Assembly (NCBI RefSeq): GCF_025144145.1
Contig: NZ_CP083546.1
Coordinates: 261,001 to 325,000 of the forward strand
Direction of reading: 5' to 3'
From: Leisingera sp. M658
GTDB lineage: Bacteria; Pseudomonadota; Alphaproteobacteria; Rhodobacterales; Rhodobacteraceae
Length of the DNA stretch: 64,000 nucleotides
Part shown: piece after piece, positions 28,683 to 46,271 of the stretch
How the letters are laid out: each line of letters opens with the position of its first letter
Position numbering within the stretch: position 1 is the first letter of the stretch
Notes under the pieces: model-generated
The model's database searches: none
What the model saw: the letters and a program-made list of their open reading frames with translations, nothing else
Told to the model about the DNA's origin: nothing
Made by a program: the position numbers and the translations under genes

Positions 28683-28730
28683 CCCCAAAGAAGTGGTCCG
28701 CCCCTATGATTAGGAAACGGAGGACCATAG

Positions 28731-29009: not shown

Positions 29010-29892
29010 GCCCCTCCCGCCGCCGGTCCTGCATTGATCATGTGCGCAGCCAAATGAAGGTTTCCGAGCGTCGCGTTTGCCGCGTTCTGGGCCAGCACCG
29101 GTCCACACAGCGGCAATTGCCTCAAGGGCGTGCTGATGAGGAACGCCTGGTCGCCGATATGATCGAGCTGACACGTCAATACGGCCGATACGGCTACCGC
29201 CGGGTTGCGGCCCTGCTGCGGGACGCTGGCTGGCCCCTCTCGGCGGTGTAAACACCGCCTGCCGGCAGCGGGTGAATGATAAACGTGTCGAACGTTTATG
29301 GCGGCGGGAGGGGCTGAAGGTTCCAATGAAGCAGCCCAGGAGGGGACGGCTCTGGCTCAACGACGGATCATGTGTCCGGCTGCGTCCCGAATATCGCAAC
29401 CACGTCTGGTCGTACGACTTTGTTCATCACCGAACGGATGATGGCAGGGCTTTCAGAACATTGAACATCCTGGACGAACACAGCCGGGAATGCCTTGCGA
29501 TCCGAGTGAAGCGGAAGCTGAATGCAAACGAGGTCATCGATGCACTGACGGACCTGTTTATCCTACGTGGCGTACCAGCATACATTCGGTCGGACAATGG
29601 CCCTGAGTTCATTGCTGAGGCCGTCAGAGGCTGGATCAAAGCTGTCGGGGCCAAAACCGCATACATCGAGCCTGGATCGCCCTGGGAGAACGGATACTGC
29701 GAGAGCTTCAATGGGCGGATGCGAGATGAATTGCTGAATGGTGAAATCTTCTATTCGCTACGCGAGGCCCAGATCATTATCGAAAGCTGGAGAAAACACT
29801 ACAACACCAAAAGGCCCCACAGTGCTCTGGGCTACCGCCCGCCTGCGCCAGAGGCCATCGTCCTGATAGACCAAAGGCCAACCATGCACTAA
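29010..29892 (+). pseudogene. IS3-family transposase OrfB, interrupted by a palindromic mini-insert
   Basis: The first part reads QMKVSERRVCRVLGQHRSTQ to [11 protein letters not shown]. Then PLSAV-stop is created by inserted DNA at 29234-29271, after which [18 protein letters not shown] resumes in another frame and continues through the DDE core ([43 protein letters not shown]) to [18 protein letters not shown]. Members of this IS read directly from AGW to QVNDKR, so the insert (net about 35 nt) breaks an otherwise sound gene. Confidence 0.8.
29234..29271 (+). repeat. Palindromic mini-element, copy A
   Basis: CCCCTCTCGGCGGTGTAAAC continues as ACCGCCTGCCGGCAGCGG. GGCGGTGT pairs with ACACCGCC around AA, and CTGCCGGCAG is self-complementary. 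It shares its outer blocks (CCCTCTCGG and CTGCCGG-CAG, followed by ATG) with copies B, C and D in the other IS3 element. Confidence 0.75.
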
Positions 29893-29924
29893 CTTTCAAT
29901 TTGGACCACTCAAGTGGGGCTAGG

Positions 29925-30662
29925 TCAGACCCTCCCGCACCGGCCGCTCATAAGGCCAGATGCATAGCCACATTTCGTCCAAGGCCGACCTTCAATAGCG
30001 CCGCCAAGAGGATGACGGATCAGCATCTGTTCAAGCGTAACCGCATTGAGCAACCTTCCCGTAAACAGAGCATGTAATAGCCGTGCAGCGTCTGCAGCAG
30101 TTCCAGTAAGACATCCATGATATACCCATCCTGGATGATACCTCTTTGCTCCATCCCAGTGAACGCGTGAGAGGTGTTTTCTAGCCGTCGCAAGCTCAAT
30201 GCTGTCCAGCCCGAGAGGGTCGCAGATCATCTCACTGACAAGGTTGGAGAATGACGAACCAGCGACGTCTTCAATTAAATCGCGGGCCAGCATGTAACCA
30301 AGGTTTGAATAGGCCCAGCCTTCACCCGGTGTAAACAAACTGCCTTGCGCCATCGTGGCATTGAACAGGTGCTCAGCAGGCCAAGGTTCTTCATCATTCG
30401 CAACCGCTTTCCTGTAGCCCGGCAGGGAATAGTAGTCCGGCAAGCCAGCGGTGTGATTCAGTAATTGGCGAAGCGAGAAGTCATGGTCTGCGAGATGTTC
30501 GTCCAGATCGAGCTTGCCCAGTTCCACGATCTTTAAGGCACAGATTGCGACTACGGTTTTGGTAAAACTCCAATAAGGAAAAACCTCTGCGCCCGAGCTT
30601 CGTTGAACACTCAAATTGGGGCCGGTTTCACGATGGGAGAAGATTTCTTGGTTCTTATTCAT
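29925..30662 (-). pseudogene. Serine hydrolase (beta-lactamase/class C-like), C-terminus lost
   Basis: From a start at 30662 (MNKNQEIFSHRETGP, AGGA upstream) the product has 245 residues with the penicillin-binding-like motifs SFTK (S-x-x-K nucleophile and base) and YSN, and NHTAGLPDYY, typical of beta-lactamase-family serine hydrolases. The stop at 29925 lies 5 nt from the IS end, after GYASGLMSG, where family members normally run on through a glycine-rich HSG/HTG motif. The IS or its deletion has therefore probably removed that motif, and the protein is likely inactive. Substrate unknown. Confidence 0.7.
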
Positions 30663-30850
30663 CGGTCCTAGTAACCTTGTTGGTGCAATCGCCACAATGG
30701 GCTCGATCCTGCCGCCCGCTGAAGTAGGCTTAGGCTGGTGGGAGCCCATTGCTGTCACGGCCACCTGGCAGACTTTTGCATGTGCGGCAGGGCGTGAACG
30801 GCGCTAAGCCGACGTCCACCGATCGTTAAGACACATCGCTAAGGACGTCG

Positions 30851-31942
30851 TTATCTGCCGACAAAGAAGCCGTATTGCTCTGCCAAGACATGCCGTGCCT
30901 CCGCTTCAAGCGCTTTGGCCGCGTGAAAGGGCCAATGCGGATTGCGCATCATCGCGCGGCCGAGCAGCACTATATCGGCGGTCTGGCTGGAGACCAGCGT
31001 TTCAGCCTGATGGGGATCGGAAATCCCGCCAACCGCCATTACCGGAAGGCCTGAGCCGCGCCGGATTTCCCCGGCCATCCCTGGCTGTTCCGCCGTACGG
31101 TTGCCAATTGCGCCGCGTGCTTCCGGGACAGCACCGCCGCCAGAACAGTCGAGGATATCCACGCCGCTCTCTTTCAGCCATTGCCCGACCTGCGAGACGT
31201 CTTCGGTTGTCAGGCCGCCCGCCGCAAAGTCATCCACCGAGAGCCGCACCGCCAGCACCCTGTCTTCTGGCCAAACGGCACGGACCTTTTCGACCGTTTC
31301 CAAAAGCAGCCGCGCCCTTCCGCGCAGGTCTCCGCCGTAAGCATCGCTGCGCTGGTTGACCAGGGGGGTGAGAAAGGAATGCAGCAAATAGCCATGCGCG
31401 CAGTGAACTTCGAGCAGATCATACCCAGCCAGCAGTGCCATTCTAGCGGAGTTGACGAACTGACCTTGAACCTCTTCAATTTCAGAGGCCTGGAGCGCGC
31501 GCGGGGCTTTCCAAAGGCGCGTGCCATCGGGATCGAAAGCGCTGTCAGTCGGGGCAACCGTTTCCCAGCCGCCCTCAGCCTCGCTGATATGGCTTCCCCC
31601 TTCCAACGCCGTCGCGGCGCTTCCTTTGCGCCCGGAATGCGAAATCTGGATGCCGGTGACCGCCCCAAAGGACTTTTGAAAGGCCACGATGGGTGCCAGG
31701 CGCTCCGCCTGCTGCTCATTCCAGAGGCCGGCGCAACCATTGGAAATCCGCCCCTCGGGAGAGACTGCGGTGCATTCGGCCATAATCAGCCCGGCACCGC
31801 CAACAGCACGCGCGCCCAGATGGACCATGTGCCAATCCGACGCCACCCCGTCCCTAGAGGAATACTGGCACATCGGCGACATGCCGATCCGGTTCTTGAA
31901 CTTAACGTTCTTGATTTCGAAGCTGGAAAACAGTGCGCTCAT
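30851..31942 (-). CDS. NADH:flavin oxidoreductase (old yellow enzyme, YqjM-like)
   Basis: A 363-residue FMN-binding TIM barrel. The YqjM-group cysteine is in MSPMCQYSS (about residue 26), the substrate-binding histidine pattern is in QISHSGRKGS, HCAHGYLLHSFLTP carries further barrel motifs, and VGGISDP the phosphate site. OYEs reduce activated C=C bonds of enones. The usual HxAH pair reads HCAH. Divergent from a LysR regulator that starts 99 nt away and probably controls it. Confidence 0.88.
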   Translation of the reverse strand: MSALFSSFEIKNVKFKNRIGMSPMCQYSSRDGVASDWHMVHLGARAVGGAGLIMAECTAVSPEGRISNGCAGLWNEQQAERLAPIVAFQKSFGAVTGIQISHSGRKGSAATALEGGSHISEAEGGWETVAPTDSAFDPDGTRLWKAPRALQASEIEEVQGQFVNSARMALLAGYDLLEVHCAHGYLLHSFLTPLVNQRSDAYGGDLRGRARLLLETVEKVRAVWPEDRVLAVRLSVDDFAAGGLTTEDVSQVGQWLKESGVDILDCSGGGAVPEARGAIGNRTAEQPGMAGEIRRGSGLPVMAVGGISDPHQAETLVSSQTADIVLLGRAMMRNPHWPFHAAKALEAEARHVLAEQYGFFVGR

Positions 31943-32040
31943 GATATGCCTCGCAGGTGCCGGAATTTCCGTCTTTATTGACGATTCCTGCTGCTGCGCC
32001 TAGTGAATTAGCCTGTCAAACAGGTTAGCTTTTCTATGCA

Positions 32041-32901
32041 ATGAAACATCTCCCGCCACTCAATACGCTCAAGGCCTTTGCGCAGCTTGCCGAAACCGGC
32101 AGCTTTGCGGAAGCTGCGCGCCGCCTTAACGTCACCTCTGCAGCGGTGTCCCAGCAGGTGAGGAAACTTGAGAAATACCTGAACAAGCCGCTGGTCCAGA
32201 AACATGGGCGCGGTGTTTTGCTGACCGAGGAAGGGCAGATCTTGTCGAGAGCGCTCAGTGAAGGCTTTTCCAGGATCCGCCGGGGAGTAGACCTGGTTGC
32301 AAAGCACAACCGCCCGCGGGTTATCAGGATAACCACATCCCCCAGCTTCGCGTCGCATTGGCTGATGCCGAAAATTTCCGAGTTCCAGCTCCTGCACCCT
32401 GACATTTCGTTTCAGCTGGATTTGTCCAGTATCGCCGTTCCGCTGAACCAATCCGATTTCGACGTCGCTATCCGGTTCTGCCACCGGAACGCACTTCCTG
32501 CTGGAATTGAACCGCTTCTGAACGTCTCGCTGAATGTGTTGGGCGCACCCGGGTTAAGCGGCGCGTTTCCTGCGGATATACCAGCGCTTGCTCAGCTCAA
32601 TTGGCTGCAAGAGGCCGGCACGTCAGATGCGCAGGATTGGTTCAACCGGCATGGGGCCGCCGGCCACAGCCCCGCACGCCTGTCCGAAATGCCGGGGAAT
32701 TTGATTATCGAGGCCCTTAAACGCGGAGAGGCGGTTGCCTATACCGTTTGCGACTGGGTGCAGGATGACATCGAACGCGGCGACCTGCAGGATCTCTGGC
32801 CCGACCGGGAGGAGGGCGCCTATTATGTGCTGTCGAATTCCGGTGATTTGGACGGCGGGAAGGCGGCGTTCCTGAATTGGCTGCACAGCGCCAGGGGCTA
32901 A
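32041..32901 (+). CDS. LysR family transcriptional regulator (GcvA-like)
   Basis: 286 residues starting MKHLPPLNTLKAFAQLAETG, with a winged helix SFAEAARRLNVTSAAVSQQV and LVQKHGRGVLLTEEG, as in the GcvA/AmpR branch of LysR. An effector domain follows. It is divergent from the OYE gene, the classical layout for a LysR-controlled enzyme. Confidence 0.88.
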   Translation: MKHLPPLNTLKAFAQLAETGSFAEAARRLNVTSAAVSQQVRKLEKYLNKPLVQKHGRGVLLTEEGQILSRALSEGFSRIRRGVDLVAKHNRPRVIRITTSPSFASHWLMPKISEFQLLHPDISFQLDLSSIAVPLNQSDFDVAIRFCHRNALPAGIEPLLNVSLNVLGAPGLSGAFPADIPALAQLNWLQEAGTSDAQDWFNRHGAAGHSPARLSEMPGNLIIEALKRGEAVAYTVCDWVQDDIERGDLQDLWPDREEGAYYVLSNSGDLDGGKAAFLNWLHSARG

Positions 32902-32945
32902 AGACTGTCTTCAGGCGCGCGGGCGAGCCGCTGAAGCCCATTAGC

Positions 32946-32999
32946 CTACCATTGCAGTCCGCCATACTTCGATCGCCACTTGTAGAAGGTCGCATTGCA
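32946..32999 (-). mobile_element. IS3-type OrfA fragment
   Basis: The minus strand reads CNATFYKWRSKYGGLQW then stop. The FYKWRSKYGG motif is characteristic of IS3-family OrfA helix-turn-helix ends. Only about 18 codons remain. Confidence 0.55.
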
Positions 33000-33030
33000 G
33001 AAGCATTGCGTGCGGCACAACTCTTTCGCG

Positions 33031-33321
33031 CCCAAGATGTCTGAGCTGGAGGGAGAGAAGGTCCGCCTGGAGGCGGTCATCGCGGACACCCCGGAACCCT
33101 CAGCCCTGCGGCTGCATCCGAGACTGCCGGCGCGGTGCCGGGTGCTGATCGAAGATCTTGCCGGCGCCCTGAACGCGCCAGAAGTGCGGCGGGAGGCGAC
33201 GGCGTCGCTGCAGGCGCTGATTTCGGAGGTGCGGATGGTTCCGGACGGTACTGCGCCAGGCGGGCATCAGCTTGAACTTGTTGGGGAATTGGCAGGGCTG
33301 ATGGCTTTGGGGCAGCCGTAA
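33031..33321 (+). pseudogene. C-terminal remnant of a large serine recombinase
   Basis: PKMSELEGEKVRLEAVIADT, then LHPRLPARCRVLIEDLAGAL, RREATASLQALISEVRMVPD and LELVGELAGLMAL match the coiled-coil and C-terminal tail of 'recombinase family' serine recombinases (typical ending ..EIRLVP....IELRGELAGIL). The catalytic and zinc-ribbon domains are missing upstream, where an IS3 scrap abuts. Confidence 0.65.
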
Positions 33322-33329
33322 TCGAAAAA

Positions 33330-33350
33330 GCCCCCGCATTTTGCGGAGGC
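33330..33350 (+). terminator. Weak hairpin after the recombinase remnant
   Basis: GCCCCCGCA-TTT-TGCGGAGGC forms a stem with one mismatch 8 nt after the remnant's stop. No T-run follows. The following DNA to 33690 has no gene. Confidence 0.4.
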
Positions 33351-33364
33351 TTGGTTGGAAACGT

Positions 33365-33385
33365 TGGTTGCGGGAGCAGGATTTG
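33365..33385 (-). other. 21-nt tRNA-fMet-like 3' end, possible attachment-site remnant
   Basis: TGGTTGCGGGAGCAGGATTTG is the reverse complement of an initiator-tRNA 3' end (T-loop part, acceptor strand, CCA). The sequence then departs from a tRNA. It lies 43 nt after the recombinase tail, where an att site would be expected, and near the border between accessory and operon DNA. Confidence 0.5.
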
Positions 33386-33690
33386 GACACTGTTTCATTC
33401 AAGTTCAATAACTTGTGGCTACGTTGCCAGCCGCCATCCTTGCAAGCTTTGCTTGAGTATCTTCCTACATCCGTTTTGCGCAGGAAGCTGCCGCTGCAAA
33501 GTTTCGAGCTGCCGGCGCCCTTCGAAACCTGGCCGGCCCCGAGCTATCGTTCACCTCACCTTTGGCCGCGGCCGTGCAGCTTCACTAGACCAGCCGCGCA
33601 AGTGCCACGCTGCATTTGCCAAGATCAAAGGTCTGCTCGCCGGGCAGACCCGCCGCTTTAACCACTTGCTCGGGAAACCCGCTCTGGTTC
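33386..33690. other. Intergenic, no gene seen
   Basis: Spacer between the recombinase scar and the 3' end of the Ehu-like operon. Plus-strand frames here lack protein character. Confidence 0.4.
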
Positions 33691-34506
33691 TCAGACCGCT
33701 TCCCGCACTGCGCTCAGGAATTGCTGTGTCCGCTCCCGCTGCGGGTTGCCGAACAGTTGCGCGGGCGGGCCCTGCTCCTCGATCTTGCCGCCATAAAAGA
33801 AGCATACCCGGTCCGAGATATCGCGGGCAAAACCCATCTGGTGAGTCACCATCAGCATGGTCAGGTTATGTTCCGATACCAGCTGGCGGATCACGTTGGT
33901 CACCTCGCCGATCACCTCCGGGTCTAAGGCCGAGGTGACCTCGTCGAACAGCATCACCTTGGGCCGCATCGCCAGTGCGCGGGCAATCGCCACCCGCTGC
34001 TGCTGGCCGCCCGACAGGCGCGAGGGATGCTGATCCTTCTTGGAGATCATGCCGACCAGTTCCAGCAATTCTTCTGAACGATCACGTGCCTCGGCCTTGG
34101 ACAGGCCCAGGACCTGCACCGGCCCTTCCATGCAGTTTTCCAACGCTGTCATATGCGGGAACAGGTTGAAGTGCTGAAAGCACATGCCGATGTCGGCGCG
34201 GCGGCTGCGCAGGTGGCGTTCGCTGGCAGGCACCAGCTGGCCGCCCTTGGGCATTTGCGTCAGCGGCTTGCCGTCCACATAGATCACCCCGCCGTTGATC
34301 TGCTCAAGCGTCATCAGCATCCGCAGCACGGTGGTCTTGCCCGAGCCGGAGGGACCGATGATCGAGACCATTTCCCCTGCCGCGACGTCGAGATCGAGGT
34401 CGTCCAGCACAGTGAGCGCCCCATAGGATTTGTTCACCTTGCGAAAGCTCACCATCGGCGTGTCTTCACCGGTGATTTCAAGCGGAAAGCCAGTATTGTC
34501 CAGCAT
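33691..34506 (-). CDS. ehuA: ABC transporter ATP-binding protein (EhuA-like, polar amino acid/ectoine type)
   Basis: The 271-residue ATPase has Walker A GPSGSGKTT, signature LSGGQQQRVAIARAL, Walker B MLFDEVTSALD and the H-loop VTHQMGFA, all typical of polar amino-acid importers. It energises import by the EhuC/EhuD-like permeases encoded just upstream. The start at 34506 is 2 nt past the permease stop, so translation is coupled; the upstream open frame is the permease gene read out of frame. Gene symbol is by similarity of the whole set to ehuABCD; the true ligand is not proven. Confidence 0.8.
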   Translation of the reverse strand: MLDNTGFPLEITGEDTPMVSFRKVNKSYGALTVLDDLDLDVAAGEMVSIIGPSGSGKTTVLRMLMTLEQINGGVIYVDGKPLTQMPKGGQLVPASERHLRSRRADIGMCFQHFNLFPHMTALENCMEGPVQVLGLSKAEARDRSEELLELVGMISKKDQHPSRLSGGQQQRVAIARALAMRPKVMLFDEVTSALDPEVIGEVTNVIRQLVSEHNLTMLMVTHQMGFARDISDRVCFFYGGKIEEQGPPAQLFGNPQRERTQQFLSAVREAV

Positions 34507-34508
34507 CG

Positions 34509-35174
34509 TTACAGTCCCAGTTTGCGGCGCACATACCCTTCGAACAGCCGGATCAGGCCCGCTGCCGGCAGGGAGATTGCCAGAAAGATGATGCCGACCA
34601 TCGTGTAAGGCTCCAGAAAGCGGTAGTTTTCCGAACCGATGGCATTGGCGGTATGGATAAGCTCGGCAACCCCGATCACCGACAGCATCGGCGTGTCCTT
34701 GAAGATGCCAACCAGGTAGTTGCCCATGCCCGACAGAGCGGGCGGGATGGCCTGCGGAATAATTACCCGGCGGTACTTCTGCGCGGTGGACATGTTGAGC
34801 GCGATTGCCGCCTCCCACTGGCCTTTCGGCACGCTTTCAATACCGCCGCGAAAGACCTCAGACAGGTAGCAGGCATAATGCAGGCCGATGGCGATCATGC
34901 CGGACATCCACGGGCTGAGCCGGATGCCGAACTGCGGTCCTACATAGAACACAAAGAAGATCTGCAGGATCAGCGGGGTAGAGCGGATGAACTCGACGAA
35001 TTCCCGCACCGCAAAGGTCACCGCTTTGGAGGGGGTCCGCTGCGCCAGTGCCAGGGCCATGCCCAGCACTACCGCAATCGCATAGCCCGCGAGGGCCGCA
35101 ACCAGCGTGTTGCCGGTGGCAGTGATCAGGCGGGGTAGAATCTCCCAGGTGAAATCCCATTGCCAGTCAAACAT
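34509..35174 (-). CDS. ehuD: ABC transporter permease (EhuD-like)
   Basis: The 221-residue inner-membrane permease starts MFDWQWDFTWEILPRLI and has about five helices with the His/Glu/Gln/Pro-type permease fold; the EAA-like loop is EVFRGGIESVPKGQWEAAIA. Together with the EhuC-like permease it forms a heterodimeric channel for polar amino acids or ectoines. Only 3 nt separate it from the preceding permease gene and 2 nt from the ATPase gene. Confidence 0.82.
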   Translation of the reverse strand: MFDWQWDFTWEILPRLITATGNTLVAALAGYAIAVVLGMALALAQRTPSKAVTFAVREFVEFIRSTPLILQIFFVFYVGPQFGIRLSPWMSGMIAIGLHYACYLSEVFRGGIESVPKGQWEAAIALNMSTAQKYRRVIIPQAIPPALSGMGNYLVGIFKDTPMLSVIGVAELIHTANAIGSENYRFLEPYTMVGIIFLAISLPAAGLIRLFEGYVRRKLGL

Positions 35175-35177
35175 GGC

Positions 35178-35885
35178 TTACGCCCTCCCCATCTTGCGCG
35201 CCATGTGGCGTTCCAGCCAGCGCATGAACGGCGTCACGAAAAAGCGGGCCAGGATGTAATAGATGACCAGTGCCGCGCCAAAGACTTGCGCCGACAGGAA
35301 GGTCGAGGCGTTGATCTGGCGGGATTCGAACATAAGGTCGGCAACCGAGATCAGCGAGACCAGCGCGGTGCCTTTCAACAGCTCGATCATCAGGTTGCCC
35401 CAGGGCGGCAGCATGCTGACAAGCGCCTGCGGCAGGATAATCCGCCGCATCCGCTGCGCCGGGCTCATGTTAATGGCAAGCGCCGCCTCCCACTGGCCCT
35501 TAGGTACCGACAGGATGCCGCCGCGCACCAGTTCCGCCCCGTAAGCGCCGATGTTCATGCCCACCGCCAGATAGCCGGCAGTGAATTTTTCAATCGTCAG
35601 GCCGAACAACGGCAGGACAAAGAAGATCCAGTAGAGCTGGACCACAAGCGAGGTGCCGCGGAAGATTTCGATATAGGTGACAGCTGCACCATGCAGCAAC
35701 CGGTTCTGCGAAAGCTTCATCAGGCCCATGCAGAGCGAGATCGCGATGCCGATTGCAGCAGCAAGCAGGAACTGTACCAAAGTAACGCCCGTTCCAGACA
35801 GGAGCCGCGGCCAGTACTGGACCAGGAATTCGTAAAAACCCATCAGTAATCCGTATTGCACGAGGAGAATTTCAGGCGGCGGCAC
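35178..35885 (-). CDS. ehuC: ABC transporter permease (EhuC-like)
   Basis: 235 residues with about five membrane helices. The coupling loop ELVRGGILSVPKGQWEAALA is nearly identical in design to that of the neighbouring permease, as expected for partner subunits of the polar amino-acid class. A few non-conserved residues precede the likely alternative start MGFYEFLVQYWPRLLSGTGV. It lies 24 nt after the binding-protein gene. Confidence 0.82.
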   Translation of the reverse strand: MPPPEILLVQYGLLMGFYEFLVQYWPRLLSGTGVTLVQFLLAAAIGIAISLCMGLMKLSQNRLLHGAAVTYIEIFRGTSLVVQLYWIFFVLPLFGLTIEKFTAGYLAVGMNIGAYGAELVRGGILSVPKGQWEAALAINMSPAQRMRRIILPQALVSMLPPWGNLMIELLKGTALVSLISVADLMFESRQINASTFLSAQVFGAALVIYYILARFFVTPFMRWLERHMARKMGRA

Positions 35886-35909
35886 CCAAGGCGCCGCCGC
35901 ACAGCCGGA

Positions 35910-36752: not shown

Positions 36753-36916
36753 GGTTTCCTCCCAGAATTTAACCTGTCTTCGATATGGAACCCGCGCCTG
36801 TTGTTTGGCTGGGGCGGCATCTCCATTGCCACGGTCCTGAGCTTTAGCCGGTGATGAGAGCGGGACACCGGGGATGTGCATCAGGACCGTGAACTCCTCC
36901 TTGGTGCCGGGCGCCC

Positions 36917-39373
36917 TTAGGCGCCGGACAGCATCCGTTTGCTTTGCGGGTCATAGAACGGGGTCAGGCTGACATCAGCCTCGATGCTTTCGCCCTCCAC
37001 CAGGACCGTGAATTGGCCGTTCTCCACCGCTGCCTTGTCTGTTTCGCCGTCCGGCAGGTTCAGCAGGCACAGGCCGACAGCCGCCCCGACCGTCTGTCCC
37101 CAGGCGCCGGCGGTCACGTAGCCCGCAATCTTGCCGTCCCGTAGAACAGGTTCGTTGTGATGCAGCAGCGGTCCGGGATCGCGCAGTTTGACCGAGCACA
37201 GGAACGGCCCCTTGTTTTCCGCCTTGCGCGCCAGATAGGCATCGCGGCCGATAAACGGGATGGGCTTCTTGGCCTTGCAGACAAATTCCATGCCCATCTG
37301 ATGCGGTGCTTCGGTATAGGCCATATCGTGGCCCCAGTGGACAAAGCCCTTTTCCAGCCGCAGCGCATTCAGCGCCTCGCCGCCGATCAGGCGGAGGCCG
37401 AACTGTTCACCGGCCTGCATCAGAACTTCGAACACATGCTCAGCGAAATCCGGGGTGATGAAGATTTCCCAGCCCAACTCGCCGGAATAGGACAGACGCT
37501 GCGCAAACACCGACGCGTGGCCAATGTGGAAATGCTGCGAGCTGTTGAACGGGAACGCTTCGTGCGACACGTCGGCATCGCTGACGGCCTGCAGCAGTTC
37601 GCGGCTCTTCGGTCCCATGATCCCCAGCACGCCATAGGCAGTTGTCGCATCGCGCAGGCGCACATCTTCGTCCGGCTGGATCAGGTCGCGCAGATGCAGA
37701 TAGTCGCGCCGGGTGTGCGAGATTGAGCTCATCACCATAAAGCTGTCGCCGCCATGACGCGCAACCGTGACATCGCTTTCGATGCCGCCGCGTTCGTTCA
37801 GCATAAGCGTATAGGCAACCCGGCCATTGGCCATTGCCATGTTGTTGGTGCAGACCCGCTGCAGGAAGTTTTCGGCGTCGCGGCCCTCGACCATCAGCTT
37901 GCCCAGCATGGTGTAGTCGATCATCGCAACCGCTTCACGCGCGGCTTTCTGTTCCTCCTGCACATGCGGGAACCAGTTCTGGCGTCCAAAGCTGTATTCG
38001 TACTTCGGCTCAACCCCTTCGGGCGCGAACCAGCCGGGGCGTTCCCAGCCCTGGGCCTCGGTGAAACAGGCGCCGCGGGCCTTCATCGGGTGATAGAACG
38101 GCGTGCGGCGCAGGTTGCGGACGGTCTCGCGCTGGCGGTTCGGCCAATGCATCGCATAGGTCAGCACCAGCGTTTCCGGGCAGCGTTCCTGCAGATAAGG
38201 GTCACGCGCCTGGAACTCCTCGCAGCGCTTGGGGTCCATTTCGCTGAGGTCGATCGGCGGATGCCCGTCGATGATCCATTGCGCCAAGGCCCGGCCCGCG
38301 CCGGAACCCGACTGGATCCCGGTGGAGTTCACCCCGCCCAGCACAAAATAGTTCGGGATGTCCGGTGCCTGCCCCAGGATGAAACGGCCGTCATAGGAAT
38401 AGCTTTCCGGCCCGTTAAAGAAGGTGCGGATACCGGTTTCCTGCAGCAGCGGCACCCGGTTCATTGCCAGTTCCAGCACCTCCATCACATCGTCCTCGAC
38501 AAACGGCAGGCTGTCGAACTCGAAGTCCTCGGAAATGCCTTTCATGCCCCAGGGTTTGGCCTGGAAATGGGCAAAGCCGAACAGCAGCTTGCCGGCGTCT
38601 TCCTTCCAATATGTGCCGTCACAGTAGGAGCGCAGCACCGGCAGGTCGCTGGGCAGGTTTTCAATTGCTTCGGTTACCAGATAGTAATGCTCGCAGGCGT
38701 GCAGCGGCACGCCAACACCGTTCTGCCGGCCCAATTCCCGCGCCCACATGCCGCCGCAGTTCACCACGTAATCGGCGCTGGTCGTGCCCTGATCGGTGCG
38801 CACGCCAACGGCCTTGCTGTCACGGGTCAGAACTTCTTCGACTTTGATGTTCTCAAAGATCTTGGCACCGCGCATCCGCGCGCCCTTGGCCAGCGCCGTG
38901 GTCAGATCCACCGGGTTGGCAGAGCCGTCGCTGGGCATATAGATACCGCCCAGCACGCCGTCGGGGTTCATCAGCGGCCAGCGTTCCAGGATTTCGGCGG
39001 TTTCCAGATACTGCGCCTCGATCCCGAACAGCGCCGCAAAATCCGCCTTGCGCTTCAGCTCGGCCATCCGTTCATCGTTCACCGCAACCGAGATTGAGCC
39101 CGACCGCCGGTAGCCCGGGTTCTGACCGGTTTCCGCCTCGATCTCTTCCAGCAGCTCAATACCGTATTTGGCAAAGGCGGTGGTGGCATGGCTGCCCTGC
39201 AGCTGCCCCACAAGGCCAGCTGCGTGCCAAGTGGTGCCGCTGGTCAGCTGCTTGCGCTCCAGCAGCACAACATCGGTCAGCCCCTGTTTGGCCAGATGAT
39301 AGGCCACCGAGCAGCCGTGAATGCCGCCGCCGATGATGACAACCTGCGCGTGGGACGGGAGTTGTTTGGTCAT
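36917..39373 (-). CDS. FAD-dependent oxidoreductase with GcvT-type domain (dimethylglycine/sarcosine dehydrogenase-like)
   Basis: The 818-residue protein opens with a FAD-binding DAO domain: VIIGGGIHGCSVAYHLAKQG at about 12-31 and SGTTWHAAGLVG. It ends with a folate-binding aminomethyltransferase (GcvT) and GcvT-C barrel (about 440-818; ELGWEIFITPDF, LRLEKGFVHWGHDM). This is the two-domain layout of dimethylglycine and sarcosine dehydrogenases, which oxidise an N-methyl group and pass the carbon to tetrahydrofolate. The substrate is inferred to be an N-methylated compound. The gene sits between the binding-protein gene and the M24 hydrolase gene in one operon. Confidence 0.82.
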   Translation of the reverse strand: MTKQLPSHAQVVIIGGGIHGCSVAYHLAKQGLTDVVLLERKQLTSGTTWHAAGLVGQLQGSHATTAFAKYGIELLEEIEAETGQNPGYRRSGSISVAVNDERMAELKRKADFAALFGIEAQYLETAEILERWPLMNPDGVLGGIYMPSDGSANPVDLTTALAKGARMRGAKIFENIKVEEVLTRDSKAVGVRTDQGTTSADYVVNCGGMWARELGRQNGVGVPLHACEHYYLVTEAIENLPSDLPVLRSYCDGTYWKEDAGKLLFGFAHFQAKPWGMKGISEDFEFDSLPFVEDDVMEVLELAMNRVPLLQETGIRTFFNGPESYSYDGRFILGQAPDIPNYFVLGGVNSTGIQSGSGAGRALAQWIIDGHPPIDLSEMDPKRCEEFQARDPYLQERCPETLVLTYAMHWPNRQRETVRNLRRTPFYHPMKARGACFTEAQGWERPGWFAPEGVEPKYEYSFGRQNWFPHVQEEQKAAREAVAMIDYTMLGKLMVEGRDAENFLQRVCTNNMAMANGRVAYTLMLNERGGIESDVTVARHGGDSFMVMSSISHTRRDYLHLRDLIQPDEDVRLRDATTAYGVLGIMGPKSRELLQAVSDADVSHEAFPFNSSQHFHIGHASVFAQRLSYSGELGWEIFITPDFAEHVFEVLMQAGEQFGLRLIGGEALNALRLEKGFVHWGHDMAYTEAPHQMGMEFVCKAKKPIPFIGRDAYLARKAENKGPFLCSVKLRDPGPLLHHNEPVLRDGKIAGYVTAGAWGQTVGAAVGLCLLNLPDGETDKAAVENGQFTVLVEGESIEADVSLTPFYDPQSKRMLSGA

Positions 39374-39391
39374 TCTGGTGAAACCTGTGGC

Positions 39392-40573
39392 TTATGTGAT
39401 GATCGGAAGCTCGCGCGCAGCACGGCGCGACAGCAGTTCGGCGCCATCCTCATGGATGACAATGTTTTCCTCGTGCAGCATCATCTTGTTGCCGCCAAAG
39501 GCGAAACCGGGCTCAAGCGTCAGCACCATGCCCGCTTCGATAACGGTATCGTCGCCGGGCATCAGCGAGGGCCATTCGGTCACCTGCATCCCCAGCCCGT
39601 GGCCCATCCGGCCGATCTGATGGCCGCTGCAGCCGCCCGCCTCCAGCACCTTGGCCATCGCGCCCCACAGATCCGCGGTGGTGATGCCGGGGCGCGCCGC
39701 CTGCAGGCCGGCCTCGGTTGCGCGCCAAGCCAGATCATAGGCGGATTTGGCCGCGTCCGAGGCATGGCCAAAGGCATAATTCCGGTCAAAGTCGCAGCTG
39801 TAGCCACCCCAAAGGGAACCGGTATCCAGCAGCAGCATGTCGCCGTCTGCGATCACCCGGTCGGTGGGCCGGTTGATCACGTCCGAGAACCCGCCGGGGC
39901 CGGAGCTGCCGACCAGATACGGCACGTCATCGGCGCCTTGCTGGAGCAGATCGATCTTGAACTTGGCAAAGGCCTGGCGTTCGGTATCGCCTGCCCGGAT
40001 ATGGTTCCGCAGATCTTCAAAGGCCGAGGAGGCAATACTGCAGATGCGCGCAATCTTGGCGATTTCAGAGGGTGATTTCACCATCCGCAGGCTGCGCACC
40101 ACATCCGCGCCGTCAGCAATCGAAATGCCGTCCAGCCTGCCCAGTAGCCGCTGAAAGTCAGCGGCGGGCATCCGCACATGGGTTTCATGCCCCATCGGCA
40201 GACCCAGGGTGCCGCCGCCGGGCATCACCTCGCGCAGGGTATCGGCCAGCAGGGAAATGCCGTCATCTTCCGGCTGCGGTGCCAGCCAGGTGCGGATATC
40301 GGAAACCCAGGTCAGCGACATGCTGGGACCGCCGATTTCCGGGATCACCGCAATGGGTGCGCCGCTGGCCGGGATCACCACAAACCAGGGCCGTGTCGGG
40401 CTGAGCCAGAAAATCGTATCGAACCCAGTGAAATAGCGCACTTCCGGCTCGGTGGTCAGCAGCAGCGCATCCAGCCCAAGGCCCGCCATGATCTTCTGGG
40501 CGGCTTGCGTGCGCTGTTCGAATTCGCTGGTAGAGAAGCCGCGTTCGGCGGCGGGATGCACATCCGTCATCAT
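39392..40573 (-). CDS. M24 family metallopeptidase (creatinase/ectoine hydrolase-like)
   Basis: 393 residues with a creatinase-N domain and a pita-bread catalytic domain. The five metal ligands of M24 enzymes can be followed: Asp in LLLDTGSLWGG, Asp in CDFDRNYAFG, His in GHGLGM, Glu in LTLEPGF and Glu in EENIVIHE. Creatinase itself lacks metals, so this looks like a metal-dependent hydrolase such as DoeA/EutD-type ectoine hydrolase or a prolidase-like enzyme. It begins 2 nt from the stop of the EutA-like gene and lies 19 nt before the oxidoreductase gene. Confidence 0.8.
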   Translation of the reverse strand: MMTDVHPAAERGFSTSEFEQRTQAAQKIMAGLGLDALLLTTEPEVRYFTGFDTIFWLSPTRPWFVVIPASGAPIAVIPEIGGPSMSLTWVSDIRTWLAPQPEDDGISLLADTLREVMPGGGTLGLPMGHETHVRMPAADFQRLLGRLDGISIADGADVVRSLRMVKSPSEIAKIARICSIASSAFEDLRNHIRAGDTERQAFAKFKIDLLQQGADDVPYLVGSSGPGGFSDVINRPTDRVIADGDMLLLDTGSLWGGYSCDFDRNYAFGHASDAAKSAYDLAWRATEAGLQAARPGITTADLWGAMAKVLEAGGCSGHQIGRMGHGLGMQVTEWPSLMPGDDTVIEAGMVLTLEPGFAFGGNKMMLHEENIVIHEDGAELLSRRAARELPIIT

Positions 40574-40574
40574 T

Positions 40575-41357
40575 TTAATCCTGAGGCTTCAATTGGGTGT
40601 GAAAAAGCATGCCCGCACCGGCGACGCTGTCGCGCAGCCCTGCCAGCCGGGCAAGGTGCCAGGCGGTGACTTGATTGCTGGACAGAACCGGCTTGCCCAG
40701 GGCTTCTTCGGCTTCAGCGATAATGGGCAGCGCCCGCAGGCTGGTGCAGGACACAAATACGCCATCGCAATCATCGCGCCGGCCGACTTCCTTGACCGCA
40801 GCCAGAATGCTGTCCGAGGAAATCCGGGCGACCTTGAAATCATCCGATTGGTTGAAGGTTCCAATCGCATTCACCTCGAACCCTGCCGCAGCCAGATTGT
40901 CCCGCATTTCAGTGGTCACCTCGGGGGCGTAGGGGGTGATCAGTGCGATCTTTTTCACCTTCAGGGCTTGAAGCGCGGCCTTGCAGGCCGTCAGCGGATT
41001 GGTGATTTTTGCCTTCGGATGCGCTTTGCTCAGTATGCTGTCCACCCGTGCTTCGCCAATCATCGTAGCGCCGGATGTGCAGCAATACCCAATTGCGCCG
41101 AATTCAAACGCCGGCGGCAGCAGCTCAGCCGCAGCCGGAAGATCGGCCTCCATCTTGCGCAGCGTGCCACAGGTGACTTCCATCTCGTTCGGGATCCGCG
41201 CGTGATAGACAGCAACATCCTTGCGCCGCAGCAGCGTGGCAAACTCATGCTCAAGCGTCTGATCGGATTGCAGCACGATCAGTCCGATCCGCGCCCTTGC
41301 GCCCAGACCGCCGTCCGCTGTGAACCCCAGTGTCTGAATATCCGGCACCACGTTCAT
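40575..41357 (-). CDS. Asp/Glu racemase superfamily protein (maleate isomerase/EutA-like)
   Basis: 260 residues beginning MNVVPDIQTLGFTADGGLG; the two active-site cysteine regions of the superfamily appear as GYCCTSGATMIG (first) and VFVSCTSLRALP (second). It resembles arylmalonate decarboxylase/maleate isomerase and ectoine-utilisation EutA. In the ehu/eut clusters this protein accompanies the hydrolase. GGCAGG precedes the ATG at 41357. It is first in the seven-gene operon, 100 nt from the tandem operators. Confidence 0.78.
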   Translation of the reverse strand: MNVVPDIQTLGFTADGGLGARARIGLIVLQSDQTLEHEFATLLRRKDVAVYHARIPNEMEVTCGTLRKMEADLPAAAELLPPAFEFGAIGYCCTSGATMIGEARVDSILSKAHPKAKITNPLTACKAALQALKVKKIALITPYAPEVTTEMRDNLAAAGFEVNAIGTFNQSDDFKVARISSDSILAAVKEVGRRDDCDGVFVSCTSLRALPIIAEAEEALGKPVLSSNQVTAWHLARLAGLRDSVAGAGMLFHTQLKPQD

Positions 41358-41459
41358 AAACCTGCCTCTAGAAAAAACGGGCGTCAGCCCTTCCCCCTGC
41401 TCCATCGCCTTGCATTCCATGGGCACTCCATGCAGTCAGGAGATGAAACTCTCGCTTGC

Positions 41460-41489
41460 TGGTATATACCAATGATCTGGTATATACCA
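41460..41489. promoter_or_regulatory. Two identical 12-bp palindromic operators
   Basis: TGGTATATACCA is perfect at 41460-41471 and again at 41478-41489, 18 nt start to start, i.e. just under two helix turns. They lie between the divergent eutA-like gene and the GntR regulator, 27-56 nt before the regulator's ATG. This form (GGTATATACC-like) fits a HutC/GntR operator, so the regulator probably represses both itself and the operon. Confidence 0.8.
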
Positions 41490-41515
41490 AACATAAAGTT
41501 GTGGGAACTGGACAC

Positions 41516-42283
41516 ATGGGCGCTAATGATCTGACCTCGGAAAAGAAAATGCCTGCCTTTCAGAAGGTTATCGACCACCTGCGAGATCAGATCCGCAGTG
41601 GAAAGCTGCCTGAGCATAGCGCGCTGCCCTCTGAAAGAGCCATCGGCGAGCAATTCGGCATCAGCAGGATGACCGCCCGCCGCGCACTTTTAGCGGTTGA
41701 ACAGGAAGGTCTCGCCTACAGTTCCGGGCGCCGCGGCCGATTCGTCTCTCCGCAGCGGCTGACCTATGACATCAGCAAGACGGTCAGCTTCTTTGCCCAT
41801 GCAGAAAGCGGCGAACTTGGCCTTAAGATTGAACTGATCTCTAAACAGCTGACCCAAGCCGACGCCGCCCTGGCGGCCAAGCTTGCAGTGGCCGAGGGCG
41901 ACACCCTTTACAAGTACACACGGCTGTTTCTGCTCAAAGGGCATCCTGCCTTTGTAGAAGAGGAATTTGCCGTCGCGCATTTGTTTCCGGATCTTTTCAG
42001 CCACGACCTGCAGCAATCAACAACGCTGCTCATGGAGCGGGAATACGGTATGCCGCCTCATTCCGGCGACATTTCCATCCGAATGCGCGCATTGAATGAG
42101 GAGGAGGCAGGATTGCTCGGGTTGCCGACCTATAATGCAGGGATCGAGCTGGAACAGGTGATCTATGATGCGGGTGGCCGGCCGTTCTGCTTTGACCGCC
42201 AAATCTGGCGCGGCGAACTGGCCGAATTCACCGCCCATGCAATCGTGCGGGACCGCCATCTTCCAACTCCAGATATAGCTTAA
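41516..42283 (+). CDS. GntR family (HutC/UTRA) transcriptional regulator
   Basis: 255 residues from MGANDLTSEKKM. The N-terminal winged helix is FQKVIDHLRDQIRSG, LPSERAIGEQFGISRMTARR and GRRGRFVSP; the C-terminal UTRA ligand domain begins near SFFAHAESGELG and includes LFLLKGHPAFVEEEF. UTRA regulators are released from DNA by a small metabolite, usually of the controlled pathway. It is divergent from the uptake/catabolic operon, with the two palindromes in the shared spacer. The upstream in-frame extension contains the operators and is not coding. Confidence 0.9.
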   Translation: MGANDLTSEKKMPAFQKVIDHLRDQIRSGKLPEHSALPSERAIGEQFGISRMTARRALLAVEQEGLAYSSGRRGRFVSPQRLTYDISKTVSFFAHAESGELGLKIELISKQLTQADAALAAKLAVAEGDTLYKYTRLFLLKGHPAFVEEEFAVAHLFPDLFSHDLQQSTTLLMEREYGMPPHSGDISIRMRALNEEEAGLLGLPTYNAGIELEQVIYDAGGRPFCFDRQIWRGELAEFTAHAIVRDRHLPTPDIA

Positions 42284-42288
42284 ACAAT

Positions 42289-43540
42289 TCATCGCTTCTT
42301 GCGAGCACTGAATCGCATCAAAGGTGGGCCCGGAAGGTTATGTTTCCGCTTCCGGTTCGACGCGACATAGGCAACGGTCGCGGCGATTTCACGGGCCTTC
42401 TGTCGGGCTCTTTTGTGCTTGGATAGAGAGATCTTTCGAACAATCCGGCAGGGTGTGCATTTGGGCCTTGGCGGGCAAGCGGCACAGTCCTGTTTTCGGG
42501 CCTGATAACGTTTGACCCTATCCTTGTCGAATTTTGGCCTGCCTTGCGGGATGTCGCGCCAGTAGGGACGCAGTTCACGGCCGCCGGGGAATTGATAGGC
42601 ATCTGTGTCTGGATCATAGATGAACTCAGTGTATGGGAAAGCTCCATCCTTGCGGGCGGGTTTATCAAAAACAGGAATTTGCGGCTCGATACTTTGTTCC
42701 TTCATCAGCCAACCGGGCATCCCGGCGGTGCCTTAGGCCGTATCCGTTCAGGAAACAGATCGAAGCGCTCCCGCCTGCGCTCCAGCATCTGGCGTACGGA
42801 ACTTACTTCGGCCTGGCGGATGGGCACCGTGGCCTCAACATCGACGATGACTGCATGATCCAAGTCGACCAGATAGATTGTGCTGTATTTAAAAAAGGGT
42901 CAGTCGCCGTTTGCGCTGGTGTAACGTGAAGCGGGATCTGATGGCGAGATCGCATTGGGCTTCACTGGCGTTGCCGCGCCAAAAGCACTGTCATCGAGTG
43001 TATCAGGACATTCTTGGGTTGCTCGGGCAACCGCATCCGGGGCAGTTATTCCTTAAAATCAACCTTGCAGTAGCGGCTGGTATCTGCCTTGACGAGCGAT
43101 GCATCCGCCCCAATTGCTTCACCGCCGACAAGCCCTTCAGCGATACATCGCGCCACCACATCCTCGATCAGATGACGGGGCAGATCACTGTTGCGGAAAC
43201 GACCATGGCAGTTCTTGGAAAAGGTGGAATGGTCGGGCACACGATCGCTCAGATCCAGGCGGCAAAACCAGTGGCAAGCCAGGTTCAGATGCACCTCATC
43301 ACAAAGCCGCCTCTCTGACCGGATGCCAAAGCAATAGCCTACGATCAGCATCCGGATCATCAACTCGGGATCGATGGGTGGGCGGCCTGTATGGCTGTAG
43401 TGCTCCGAAAGACGTGAGCGGATGCTGGCCAGATCAACAAATGGATCAATTGCGCGCAGCAGGTGATCCCTGGGCACATGATCTTCCAGGGCGAACCCGT
43501 AAAACAACGCGCCTTGTGCCTCTTGTCGCTGCCCCATCAT
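42289..43540 (-). pseudogene. IS1182-family transposase, broken into three frames
   Basis: From 43540 the minus strand reads MMGQRQEAQGALFYGFALED, HYSHTGRPPIDPELMIRMLI and DHSTFSKNCHGRF, the N-terminal IS1182 transposase, ending at a stop near 43046. A middle part (VDLDHAVIVDVEATVPIRQA) follows in another frame, then FDKPARKDGAFPYTEFIYDP and CAACPPRPKCTPC in a third (42289-42720). At least two frameshifts and some missing sequence make it non-functional. It ends 6 nt from the GntR stop. Confidence 0.8.
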
Positions 43541-43890
43541 CGCCAAATCCCCCGCCCTATGCAGGAATTGCATCAATTACCTGCAGGCAGATCAAGGAAG
43601 ACTTTTTCAACGCAATCTGCGTGAAGCGGGCGCGCAAGACTGTTCTGGCTGCGCCTGCAGCGAATGACGGCTCCGTCCCGTAACCTGGGAGTTCGGGGGA
43701 CAGATCTCGCTGCAGCATGCTTGAACGGCTGGTTTTCACGCCGCGTAGCGGCGCTGAAAAGATGCGTTTGCGGCGATTTTCGTGCTGCGATCGCGCGCAG
43801 CAGAAAAATCTAAGGTACAAATAATGGGATGTACCGGCTGCTTCACCCAGCAGGTTCGGCTAGGCCTATTTCTGCACATGGAGAATTAGT

Positions 43891-44866
43891 ATGGCGAAGA
43901 ATGATCTTGATGAGCCGATGTCTGTCGGCATCGATATCGGTAAGGACGTGTTTCATCTGGTTGGTTTCGATCACGATGGTCAGCTTGTTCTCCGCAAGAA
44001 GATCAAACGGCTGGCTCTTGTGGCGGCCTTTGAGCAATTGCCACGCTGTATCGTTGGAATGGAAGCCTTTCAACAAGGGTCAAAAGAACGACTACAACGA
44101 TGCCGAGGCGATTGCAGAGGCCGCATTGCGCCGCAATCTTAAGACGGTTTTCTGAGAAGACGCAGGACCAGCTTGACCTGCAAGCTCTGCATCGCGTCCG
44201 GTCTCGCCTTGTGTCGCGGCGGACGGCCGCGATGAACCAGATCCGGGCCTTTCTGATCGAACAGGATATCACCGCCCGGCGCAGCGTGCCTGCCTTGCGC
44301 AACTCGCTTGAAGCTATCCTCGGCAATCGCAGCGGCGAGATGTCCCTGCGCATGCGCAACTGATCTTAGGCCTCCGGCAGGGCTGGATCTGGCTGGACAA
44401 ACGGATCGAGATGACCACGGCTGAAATCATGGAGGTCAGCGAAACTGAGCCGGGTTGCCAGCGGCTTATGACGATCCCAGGTATTTGGCCCGTTGATCTC
44501 AACGGCGATGGCTGCTGCCGTTGGCGAGGGCGAGGCCTATGACCGGGGACGCGACTTTGCAGCCTGGCTCGGATTGGTCCCGAGGCAAAGCAGCACCGGC
44601 GGGCGCACGATATTGGGGACATCACAAAACGGGGCAGTCGTTATCTGCGCATGCTCTTTGTGCAGGCCGCACAGGTCATCATGATGCGCCCCAAGAACTG
44701 GCACAAGTTCAGCTTTGGTCCGTGGCTGGAAGCAGCGTTAATGCGGATGCAGCACAACAAACTTGGTGCGGCACTGGCCAACAAGCTCGCCCGGATCGCC
44801 TGGAGCGTCCTCAGCTCCGGCAAGGACTTTGATTGGAAAGGACAAGAGATAGCGGCTGCGGTCTGA
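43891..44866 (+). pseudogene. IS110-family transposase, frameshifted and internally deleted
   Basis: MAKNDLDEPMSVGIDIGKDV is the DEDD catalytic start. After GMEAF the frame shifts and about 40 residues usually present are missing before GQKNDYNDAEAIAEAAL, where a shift again leads to EKTQDQLDLQALHRVRSRLV. The C-terminal part DRGRDFAAWLGLVPRQSSTG and KNWHKFSFGPWLEAALMRMQ is in two more frames. It is therefore a dead IS110 element. Confidence 0.8.
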
Positions 44867-45184
44867 TCAGGCCAATGCCGCAAACAACGTTCGTAAACCT
44901 CAACTGCATGGAACGGAATTAAGACGCACCCAAAGTCTGAGAGTCCAAATGGTCATCAATGATCTGGCAAGTAATGAGACAGCGGCGCGTGCGCACTCCC
45001 AACAGGGCCACGGCAAACAATGAAGCCGATACAAAGACCGGATGCATATCAGCGGCTTCCAGAAGACATGCGATTGATCACTTGCGAACAGCAGCCGGTA
45101 CATACATTGGGCTCAATGCTGACCTCGAATGCGCTGCAGCATCCACGGGCTCCAGATCGCCCGGCTAGGCGCGACCGGCCCAAC
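44867..45184 (+). other. Non-coding tail, probably the IS110 right-end region
   Basis: About 320 nt with no gene between the IS110 transposase and the next IS3 element. IS110-type elements carry a structured non-coding end that in some members encodes the bridge RNA guiding insertion; this stretch is in the right place. No structure was computed. Confidence 0.35.
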
Positions 45185-45251
45185 TAGAGGTGGTCGCGGG
45201 AATTCAGACCAGTTGCCAATATGGATCGCATGATGAAAGTGACGATCCAAA

Positions 45252-45533
45252 ATGACGGAACGCAAGAACCCTTCTCCCGCATTCAAAGCCCAAGTTGCGC
45301 TTGAGGCGATCCGCGAGGAGAGGGTACTGGCAGAGTTATCGAAGACGTCCGGCGCGCATCCGAACATGGCCAGCGGCTGGAAACGGGCGGCGATCAAGAA
45401 CATGGCCTGAGCCTTTTCCAAGAGGACCGGCGCTGCGGCTAAATCCAACGGGGCTGAGATCGGCAAGCTGCATTCCAAGACCGGCCAGCCTGTGGCTGAA
45501 CGCGGTTTTTTGAAACGCGCCCGGGATCGTTAA
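45252..45533 (+). pseudogene. IS3-family OrfA with an internal stop
   Basis: MTERKNPSPAFKAQVALEAI, RVLAELSKTSGAHPNMASGW and LHSKTGQPVAERGFLKRARD follow the OrfA pattern. An in-frame TGA at 45408-45410 splits it after KNMA. Confidence 0.75.
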
Positions 45534-45682
45534 GCAAGGATCACAGGCGGATGTGCATTGAAAAGGATCATCCGAAGATCAGCGTTCGCCGTCAGTGCCA
45601 GATACTGTCGCCGGCCTGTTCGAACCTTGTTCACACGCCAAAGGGCGAGAGCGCCGGGAACCTGCGGTTCATGACAATCATC

Positions 45683-45726
45683 CGCTGCCCGGCAGGCGGT
45701 TTGCTGCCGCAAATCCGCCGGGAGGG
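45683..45726 (-). repeat. Palindromic mini-element, copy D (reverse orientation)
   Basis: On the minus strand it reads CCCTCCCGGCGGATTTGC, GGCA, GCAAACCGCC, then TGCCGGGCAGCG followed by GATG. GGCGGATTTGC pairs with GCAAACCGCC with one bulge. It interrupts OrfB between the codons for MTII and the FLETP region. Confidence 0.7.
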
Positions 45727-45972
45727 ACAGGCCATTTCTTGAGACACCGTGGTACGGCTCCCGCCAGATGGCCCGCTATTTGCAGCGGCAGGGCCAATAA
45801 TGCGGCCGTCACCCTGCGCGCCGCCTGATGCGGCTCATGCGCCTTGCTCCGGTCTGTCAGACGCCGAAGACCAGCAGGAAACACCCGCAGCACAAGATCT
45901 GGCCGTAGCTTTTGAAGGCGCTGGCCATCAGCCGCCCCAGCCAGGTCTGGTGCGCCGGTATCAGCTGTATCC

Positions 45973-46013
45973 CCCTCTCGGCAGATTGCTTTGCAATCGC
46001 CTGCCGGGCAGTG
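45973..46013 (+). repeat. Palindromic mini-element, copy B
   Basis: CCCTCTCGGCAGATTGCTTT then GCAATCGCCTGCCGGGCAGTGG. GATTGC pairs with GCAATC around TTT. It separates codons for CI-P from ATGCGCTGGGGC of the transposase (normally continuous IPMRRGF). Confidence 0.75.
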
Positions 46014-46234
46014 GATGCGCTGGGGCTTTCTCGTATCTGGTAGCGGTCATGGGCTGGGTCAGCCGCAAGGTTCTGGCCTGGCGGCTCTCCAGCATGGAGG
46101 CTGGCTTCTGTGCCGGGGCTTTGAAAGAGGCGCTGGCCGGATATGGCGCCCGAGATCATGAACAGCGGCCAGGGCAGCCAGTTCACCGGCTTTGAGTGGA
46201 CGCAGGCACGGAAAGACGCCGATGTCCGTATCTG

Positions 46235-46271
46235 CCCTCTCGCGCATGTAAACATGCGCTGCCGGACAGTG
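46235..46271 (+). repeat. Palindromic mini-element, copy C
   Basis: CCCTCTCGCGCATGTAAACA then TGCGCTGCCGGACAGTG. GCGCATGT pairs with ACATGCGC around AA. It separates DVRI from MDGRGRW of the transposase. Confidence 0.75.

Follow-up and report, generated by a model that had tools for sequence, protein, structure and literature searches.

An apparently undescribed family of ~40-nt hairpin inserts in marine Rhodobacterales, mostly within transposase genes of unrelated insertion sequences

Introduction

The nearest precedents for the ~40-nt hairpin inserts described here, four of which lie in a 64,000-nt stretch of Leisingera sp. M658 (the window: contig NZ_CP083546.1, positions 261,001-325,000, forward strand; host genome G000, 4.89 Mb), are RUP, a mini-element found in many insertion sequences (ISs), and the REPs, which are bulged hairpins thought to be mobile; our family has the defining features of neither. 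RUP is about 107 bp long, has terminal inverted repeats and a TA duplication, and is linked to IS630. In pneumococcus it is described, in the part of the source that concerns it, as a small non-autonomous repeat whose host transposase genes represent more than six IS families (PMC2229807). The present inserts are likewise small, non-autonomous and located in IS transposases, but they are mostly 34-45 nt long, show neither terminal inverted repeats nor a target duplication, and form a covarying hairpin. REPs, according to excerpts of two accounts, are hairpins of 20-50 nt that occur in high copy number and in some groups have a bulge or mismatch in the stem, the bulge of the E. coli REP being required for activity (PMC8266576), and they carry a GTAG or CGTC foot, the latter in PMC3733652. 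REPs are mostly intergenic. Hairpin size, bulge and high copy number recur in our family, whose arms, however, read CCCTCTC and TGCCGGGCARYG without a GTAG or CGTC foot, whose site groups in the host genome lie in transposase DNA in 47 of 53 cases, and whose host genome G000 has no match to a REP transposase.

A third comparison concerns the IS200/IS605 transposons and IS608, the element to which the base T17 presumably belongs. In the excerpted accounts, T17 is unpaired and gripped by its transposase (PMC8266576), and IS608 inserts 3' of TTAC, which is retained in the left flank (PMC5934647). An unpaired hairpin base, a short one-sided target and the lack of a duplication are thus shared with IS200/IS605 elements (PMC5934647 and PMC8266576, in excerpt, and in part general background). 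The difference is that an element of ~41 nt has no room for a transposase gene, and that it has a single main hairpin where IS200/IS605 elements have a hairpin at each end. The palindromic elements of Rickettsia, finally, are translated in frame. They measure 105-146 bp in the relevant part of PMC2229807 and are likewise palindromes inside genes, whereas our family is shorter and breaks the frame.

At ~40 nt, the hairpin family would rank among the smallest mobile elements known, and it offers a natural test case for how tiny hairpins move, for the mobilization of broken ISs in trans, and for whether transposons carry parasites of their own. It may also explain some of the apparent frameshifts in transposase annotations of Rhodobacterales.

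Four inserts of the window and the family to which they belong

The inserts and their host ISs are as follows, the ends of the ISs being those given in an earlier note on the window that was made from its sequence alone.

29235..29271, plus strand: element 1, 37 nt, straight-stem type GGCGGTGT/ACACCGCC, inside orfB of an IS3-family IS
45683..45726, minus strand: element 2, 44 nt, reversed, left arm CCCTCCC
45973..46013, plus strand: element 3, 41 nt, bulged-A type GGC-A-GATTGC/GCAATC-GCC
46235..46271, plus strand: element 4, 37 nt, straight stem GCGCATGT/ACATGCGC
28683..29919, plus strand: host IS of element 1, IS3 family, frame intact save for element 1
45185..46566, plus strand: host IS of elements 2-4, IS3 family, degenerate, with HTH_21 and rve matches

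The earlier note had described four inserts sharing a common plan, and all four are real: a covariance model (R1), built from relatives gathered with the same motif, returned exactly these four from the window at E <= 0.0012 (66.7 bits for element 3), the next match being at E 0.44. The plan consists of CCCTCTC, a hairpin of the form G-NN-(A)-NNNNNN-loop-NNNNNN-NN-C, and TGCCGGGCARYG. The ATG that had been counted as part of it belongs to the target, since the element ends six bases past CTGCCGG. No covariance-model match from Rfam overlapped the window elements, and none was found over 45900-46300 at a lax threshold either. As to the hosts, it had been said that the transposase open reading frames continue cleanly on both sides of the inserts. 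This holds for the IS at 28683-29919 apart from its insert, downstream of which an rve (integrase-core) match is found, but not for the degenerate IS at 45185-46566, which has no long open frame. In the latter, element 3 directly precedes GATGCGC in the integrase-core region (the rve match around the site is below the Pfam cut-off), and element 2 is also present in a second copy of its host IS, at C1:1118494. Element 1 is found at the identical site in three more near-identical IS copies.

A genome search, which had been named as a check, confirmed a multi-copy family and not chance matches only: in the host genome the pattern CCCTCTCGN{6,30}CTGCCGG is matched 61 times and a reversed control pattern once, and for the right end alone (TGCCGGGCARYGGA) the counts are 54 and 0. 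Because the search itself required CCCTCTCG and CTGCCGG, some of their constancy is built in, a constraint that is relaxed in the right-arm-only search and in model R1. At E <= 0.01, R1 finds at least 94 copies in the host genome, a number that is perhaps too low, since scoring covered 150 of the 7491 first-look candidates. Eight further copies from the pattern list bring the number to at least 102 copies in 53 site groups, or about 50 distinct sites, as the groups contain near-duplicates (49 and 51 represent the same site with an offset of one base; 32, 37 and 42 all come from a single IS5 site, with different right flanks). Fifteen right ends without the standard left arm, among the loci compared, were excluded from the counts.

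Among congeners, the same pattern has 46, 44 and 28 matches in genomes G002, G009 and G019, and it is rare in other members of the genus. At least one match occurs in 52 of 101 genomes; many of the lone matches in distant genomes are unstructured, and unstructured ones in unrelated taxa look like chance. Hairpin-bearing matches, among those listed, come from Leisingera, Ruegeria, Roseobacter, Sagittula, Jannaschia, Rhodobacter and Pseudophaeobacter, and the listed matches also include Labrenzia and Cohaesibacter. The inserts form a large and apparently undescribed family of ~40-nt hairpins in marine Rhodobacterales, most of them in transposase genes of many unrelated ISs; no description of such elements was found in searches of open-licence papers, among them one for four element sequences, which no paper matched.

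Hairpin structure and covariation

Element lengths cluster at 41, 43, 37, 34 and 39 nt (mostly 34-45 nt, with 41 the commonest) and are not tied to multiples of three. A stem filter was passed by 147 of 211 motif matches, for each of which a single main hairpin was parsed; an unpaired A occupies hairpin position 4 in 89 of them and 43 have a straight stem without bulge, the 64 elements failing the filter being left out of these counts. The earlier proposal that structure is kept while sequence drifts is borne out by double compensatory changes in both sets. For 42 bulged elements, 97.4% of the cells are paired, a percentage inflated by pre-selection of the rows for pairing, and 61 cells carry a double change as compared with 13.6 in shuffles (0 of 500 reach 61), with low values in slid-alignment controls. 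Double changes are seen in seven of the nine stem pairs of this set, a spread equalled by 72 of 500 shuffles. The straight elements (n=15) have 18 double-change cells, as compared with 5.3 in shuffles. A 4-bp CTGC/GCAG mini-stem may form beside the main hairpin.

Conserved ends that flank a variable middle could also be expected if the inserts were scars left by the precise loss of larger elements. This we consider highly improbable: no larger element with both ends within 400 bases of each other was found in about 1.4 Mb of loci, where only neighbouring copies of the insert turned up, and the covariation and the bulge indicate that it is the short form on which selection acts.

Short members with a straight stem (GGCGGCAAAGCCGCC and close variants) were noticed at G000:C7:16238-16271 and in loci L069, L070, L075, L076, L078, L079 and L095. 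They lie in apparently intergenic DNA of several congeners, directly before a GGGACGGGAGTATTTT-like repeat, and are possibly an ancestral or separately used form of the family.

Insertion precision and target

For 79 of 136 representative sites, an unoccupied homologous site (at least 70% identity) was found among the loci compared, which establishes that the elements are inserts and not ancestral IS sequence, as the earlier note had it. Forty-eight of the 79 empty/occupied pairs join without a gap, 20 are short of one target base, often a C assignable to either side, and 11 are otherwise off by 1-4 bases. No target duplication was seen in these comparisons, nor were terminal inverted repeats. 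The 136 sites are what remains of 208 flank sets after removal of 28 that fail the stem filter, of 36 near-duplicates among the resulting 180 and of eight GTATTT-type sites among the resulting 144; they have A/T at -5 in 88, C at -1 in 102, G at +1 in 99, A at +2 in 88, T at +3 in 80 and G at +4 in 80 cases. The element prefers C^GATGR, an asymmetric and weakly conserved target that reads YCATC^ 5' of the element on the other strand. Where the left flank ends in G (for example L006, L007, L011 and L080), the element often has a GTRAYA-like 3' end in place of GCARYG, a variant of that end which depends on the flank.

At 57 sites outside the host genome, the orientation relative to the transposase is sense in 29 and antisense in 28. 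A reading as translational bypass or splicing was rejected on this near-equality. The comparison with Rickettsia palindromes made in the earlier note fails on the same count of 29 vs 28, as well as on size (mostly 34-45 nt) and on lengths that do not keep to multiples of three.

That RUP likewise sits in several IS families (PMC2229807, in excerpt) would favour a RUP-like miniature inverted-repeat transposable element mobilized by an ordinary DDE transposase. With neither terminal inverted repeats nor a target duplication seen, such an origin is hardly credible.

Preference for IS DNA

Peptides from 43 of the 53 site groups of the host genome match transposase profiles, although several of the matches are below curated cut-offs and four groups in one IS (18, 35, 36 and 41) rest on the match of one fragment. 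Of 77 peptide fragments made, 64 were searched against profiles, those left out being mostly antisense; one was added, and unmatched sites were searched again. Groups 13, 14, 34 and 50 lie within the same IS as a matched group or a close relative of it, which places 47 of 53 in transposase DNA. Five groups (4, 27, 30, 45 and 46) have no IS assignment, and group 52 is intergenic, beside an RmlD-like gene. By profile name, the hosts belong to IS3, IS21, IS66, IS91, IS110, IS481 and IS1182, to which are added DDE_Tnp_1-type transposases, which we take to be of the IS5 family, making at least eight families. The earlier statement that the inserts all interrupt IS3-family transposases therefore stands for the concentration in IS DNA but not for the restriction to one family.

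As a baseline, 20 random 10-kb stretches (200 kb; two overlap slightly and two contain elements) hold 6.8 kb of transposase DNA by match, 14.4 kb with generous flanks, and 26.3 kb of intergenic DNA by a crude measure. If only IS and intergenic DNA tolerate inserts, about 35% of the sites would be expected in ISs, as against 47 of 53, or 44 of 50 with near-duplicates merged (p about 1e-15 and 1.7e-14), although the IS share is perhaps underestimated because the transposase library was drawn from element sites and other ISs may be missed. Outside the host genome, 57 of 95 sites match the transposase library; in 37 the match comes within 15 residues of the insertion, and in 20 it is more distant but within 450 bases. 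The remaining 38 comprise eight intergenic sites of the GTATTT type or similar to it, and others that by eye include further likely ISs and intergenic DNA. The earlier suggestion of a mini-element that targets IS DNA accordingly agrees with an overwhelming preference in the host genome, for which RUP is a precedent, whereas elsewhere other dispensable or intergenic DNA is also used. Elements were also seen in a RelE-like gene (L105 and L210), a phage cytosine methylase (L201 and L223) and an RHS-like gene (L162), all named by eye; the RelE-like and phage methylase hosts are other dispensable mobile genes.

One could ask whether the hairpins are a host defence, placed in transposase genes to silence the transposons. 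The excess in transposase DNA just described, the presence of four elements in one IS, and the fact that several insertions directly precede the GAC codon of D-S-T or D-A-T motifs (codons that are presumably catalytic) would fit such a defence. We nevertheless regard it as very unlikely: interrupted ISs still multiply, both orientations occur, elements are found in non-IS DNA as well, and no effector of such a defence was found. The insertions at GAC codons may reflect no more than the fit of ATC|GAC to the target motif, and selection and hitchhiking can enrich IS sites, over a baseline that may be set too low. It is more a speculation than an expectation, and distinctly unlikely, that a dedicated Rhodobacterales system with a novel enzyme writes tiny hairpins at preferred conserved transposase sites, often catalytic codons, be it for silencing or as a hyper-parasite that homes to transposons.

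Recurrent sites and hitchhiking with the host IS

The 208 distinct flank sets contain 27 clusters that share a site; two of these (3 and 8) represent ordinary conserved genes, and some consist of near-identical copies. In clusters 1, 2, 4, 6, 10, 13, 15 and 27, clearly different hairpins occupy one nucleotide. Among 17 related IS5-type copies, five have a GTGACATTGC-type element at one nucleotide and a sixth has it one column off, and other common sites are used by three, two and two copies. Two of these copies (L002 and L077, 92% identical) are reciprocal, each being empty where the other is occupied. At the GTGACATTGC-type site, four of the five copies (L001, L036, L077 and L166) have identical 41-nt elements, while in the four pairs for which a count was made the flanks agree, without gaps, at 66-95 of 120 positions; identical elements between flanks so diverged point to recent separate insertions. 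Where occupied copies differ, a third codon position is affected in 308 of 650 cases, above chance, in a count whose pairs are not independent and whose reading frame was assigned by hand; if insertions kill the gene, this excess would mean that much of the divergence is older than the insertions.

That the same nucleotide, the same orientation and often the same element recur in related IS copies might be explained by few true transpositions followed by gene conversion among homologous ISs. This alternative appears unlikely, because the hairpins at one site are clearly different in the eight clusters named above and the same element is shared by IS copies that diverge by about 20-45% in their close flanks, and because gene conversion cannot account for entry into eight IS families.

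A second, unrelated palindromic insert of ~44 nt (GAGATGGGACCGT-GGCCCC..GGGGCC-GCGTAAGCCCAT) was noticed in the same IS5-type transposase (L017:1402-1441); it has nine matches in G000 and none in 20 congeners.

The IS3 copy at 28683-29919 and three sisters differ at 0 or 1 position over 542 bases and share the same element in four different genomic surroundings. Two more matches of 100% to that IS3 end before the site, the next best being 72-75% identical, and no near-identical copy that spans the site without the element was found. An IS5-type IS is present in eight copies (97-100% identical over 301 bases; best other long match 72%), seven of which have four elements and the eighth just one of those. 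Since interrupted ISs still multiply, the elements also hitchhike with their hosts, which presumably are moved in trans. One possible helper is L296, which is 75% identical to the IS3 and has a long open frame. Nearly precise in its insertion and nested in transposons, the element is apparently a miniature parasite of parasites.

Possible mechanism of mobility

The asymmetric short target, the absence of a duplication and the bulged hairpin together recall the HUH transposases of IS200/IS605 elements and REPs (PMC8266576, PMC5934647). Our tentative preference, held with some doubt, is for a non-autonomous element whose folded single strand is moved in trans by an HUH-type (Y1-like) enzyme. The transposase would recognize the bulged hairpin of a single folded DNA strand and join that strand next to a short target, in the manner of the IS200/IS605 and REP enzymes. 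Copies inside ISs would survive because no host gene is harmed, and would spread whenever the interrupted IS is still mobilized by related transposases.

Several observations weigh against this. The host genome, 100% complete by estimate, has no match to Y1_Tnp (PF01797) or to a REP transposase; Y1 is present in six of 21 genomes of the genus, and of those with high copy numbers G002 and G009 have it while G000 and G019 do not. Compared at four loci of relatives (L251-L254), the IS200-type element has ends unlike those of our family. One main hairpin was parsed instead of one per end, and guide-target pairing, sought by eye, was not found. A wobble test for the active strand gave 36 A.C vs 10 G.T in a first set, favouring the strand with the target 5', but this was not replicated in 35 further hairpins (4 vs 6); the pooled counts are 40 vs 16 (p 0.002, with related hairpins counted separately), and we place no weight on this test. 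Nor is the preference for IS DNA predicted by an HUH mechanism alone.

As candidate movers, resident Y1, TnpB, REP tyrosine transposase and reverse transcriptase were considered without success, none having a match in G000 or a clear tie to copy number. TnpB has no match in the host genome, and none of the 21 genus genomes has a match over cut-off to NF047646 (REP transposase), with weak matches in five that do not include G000. IS91-type (Y2 HUH) enzymes are present in G000, and IS91 ends were not definable from the loci compared. The mover may have been lost, may be distant, or may be of another kind, IS91-type included.

Stem covariation, the lack of a target duplication and small irregularities at the junctions would also suit a short structured RNA that is reverse-transcribed into nicked targets, with the preferred downstream GATG marking the position at which the primer pairs with the 3' end of the RNA. 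We judge this route quite unlikely, as RVT_1 (PF00078) has no match in G000, G002 and G019, although G009 has one.

In loci L251-L254, the IS200-type element has a long inverted repeat (CTTACCCTCCGGAAAATGAGCC...GGCTCATTTTCCGGAGGGTAAG) immediately upstream of its Y1 gene that reaches the start codon and could mask translation of that gene. In the window, broken IS1182-like and IS110-like transposase remnants at 42289-44363 (families named by eye) adjoin the inserts, and the region looks like an IS graveyard.

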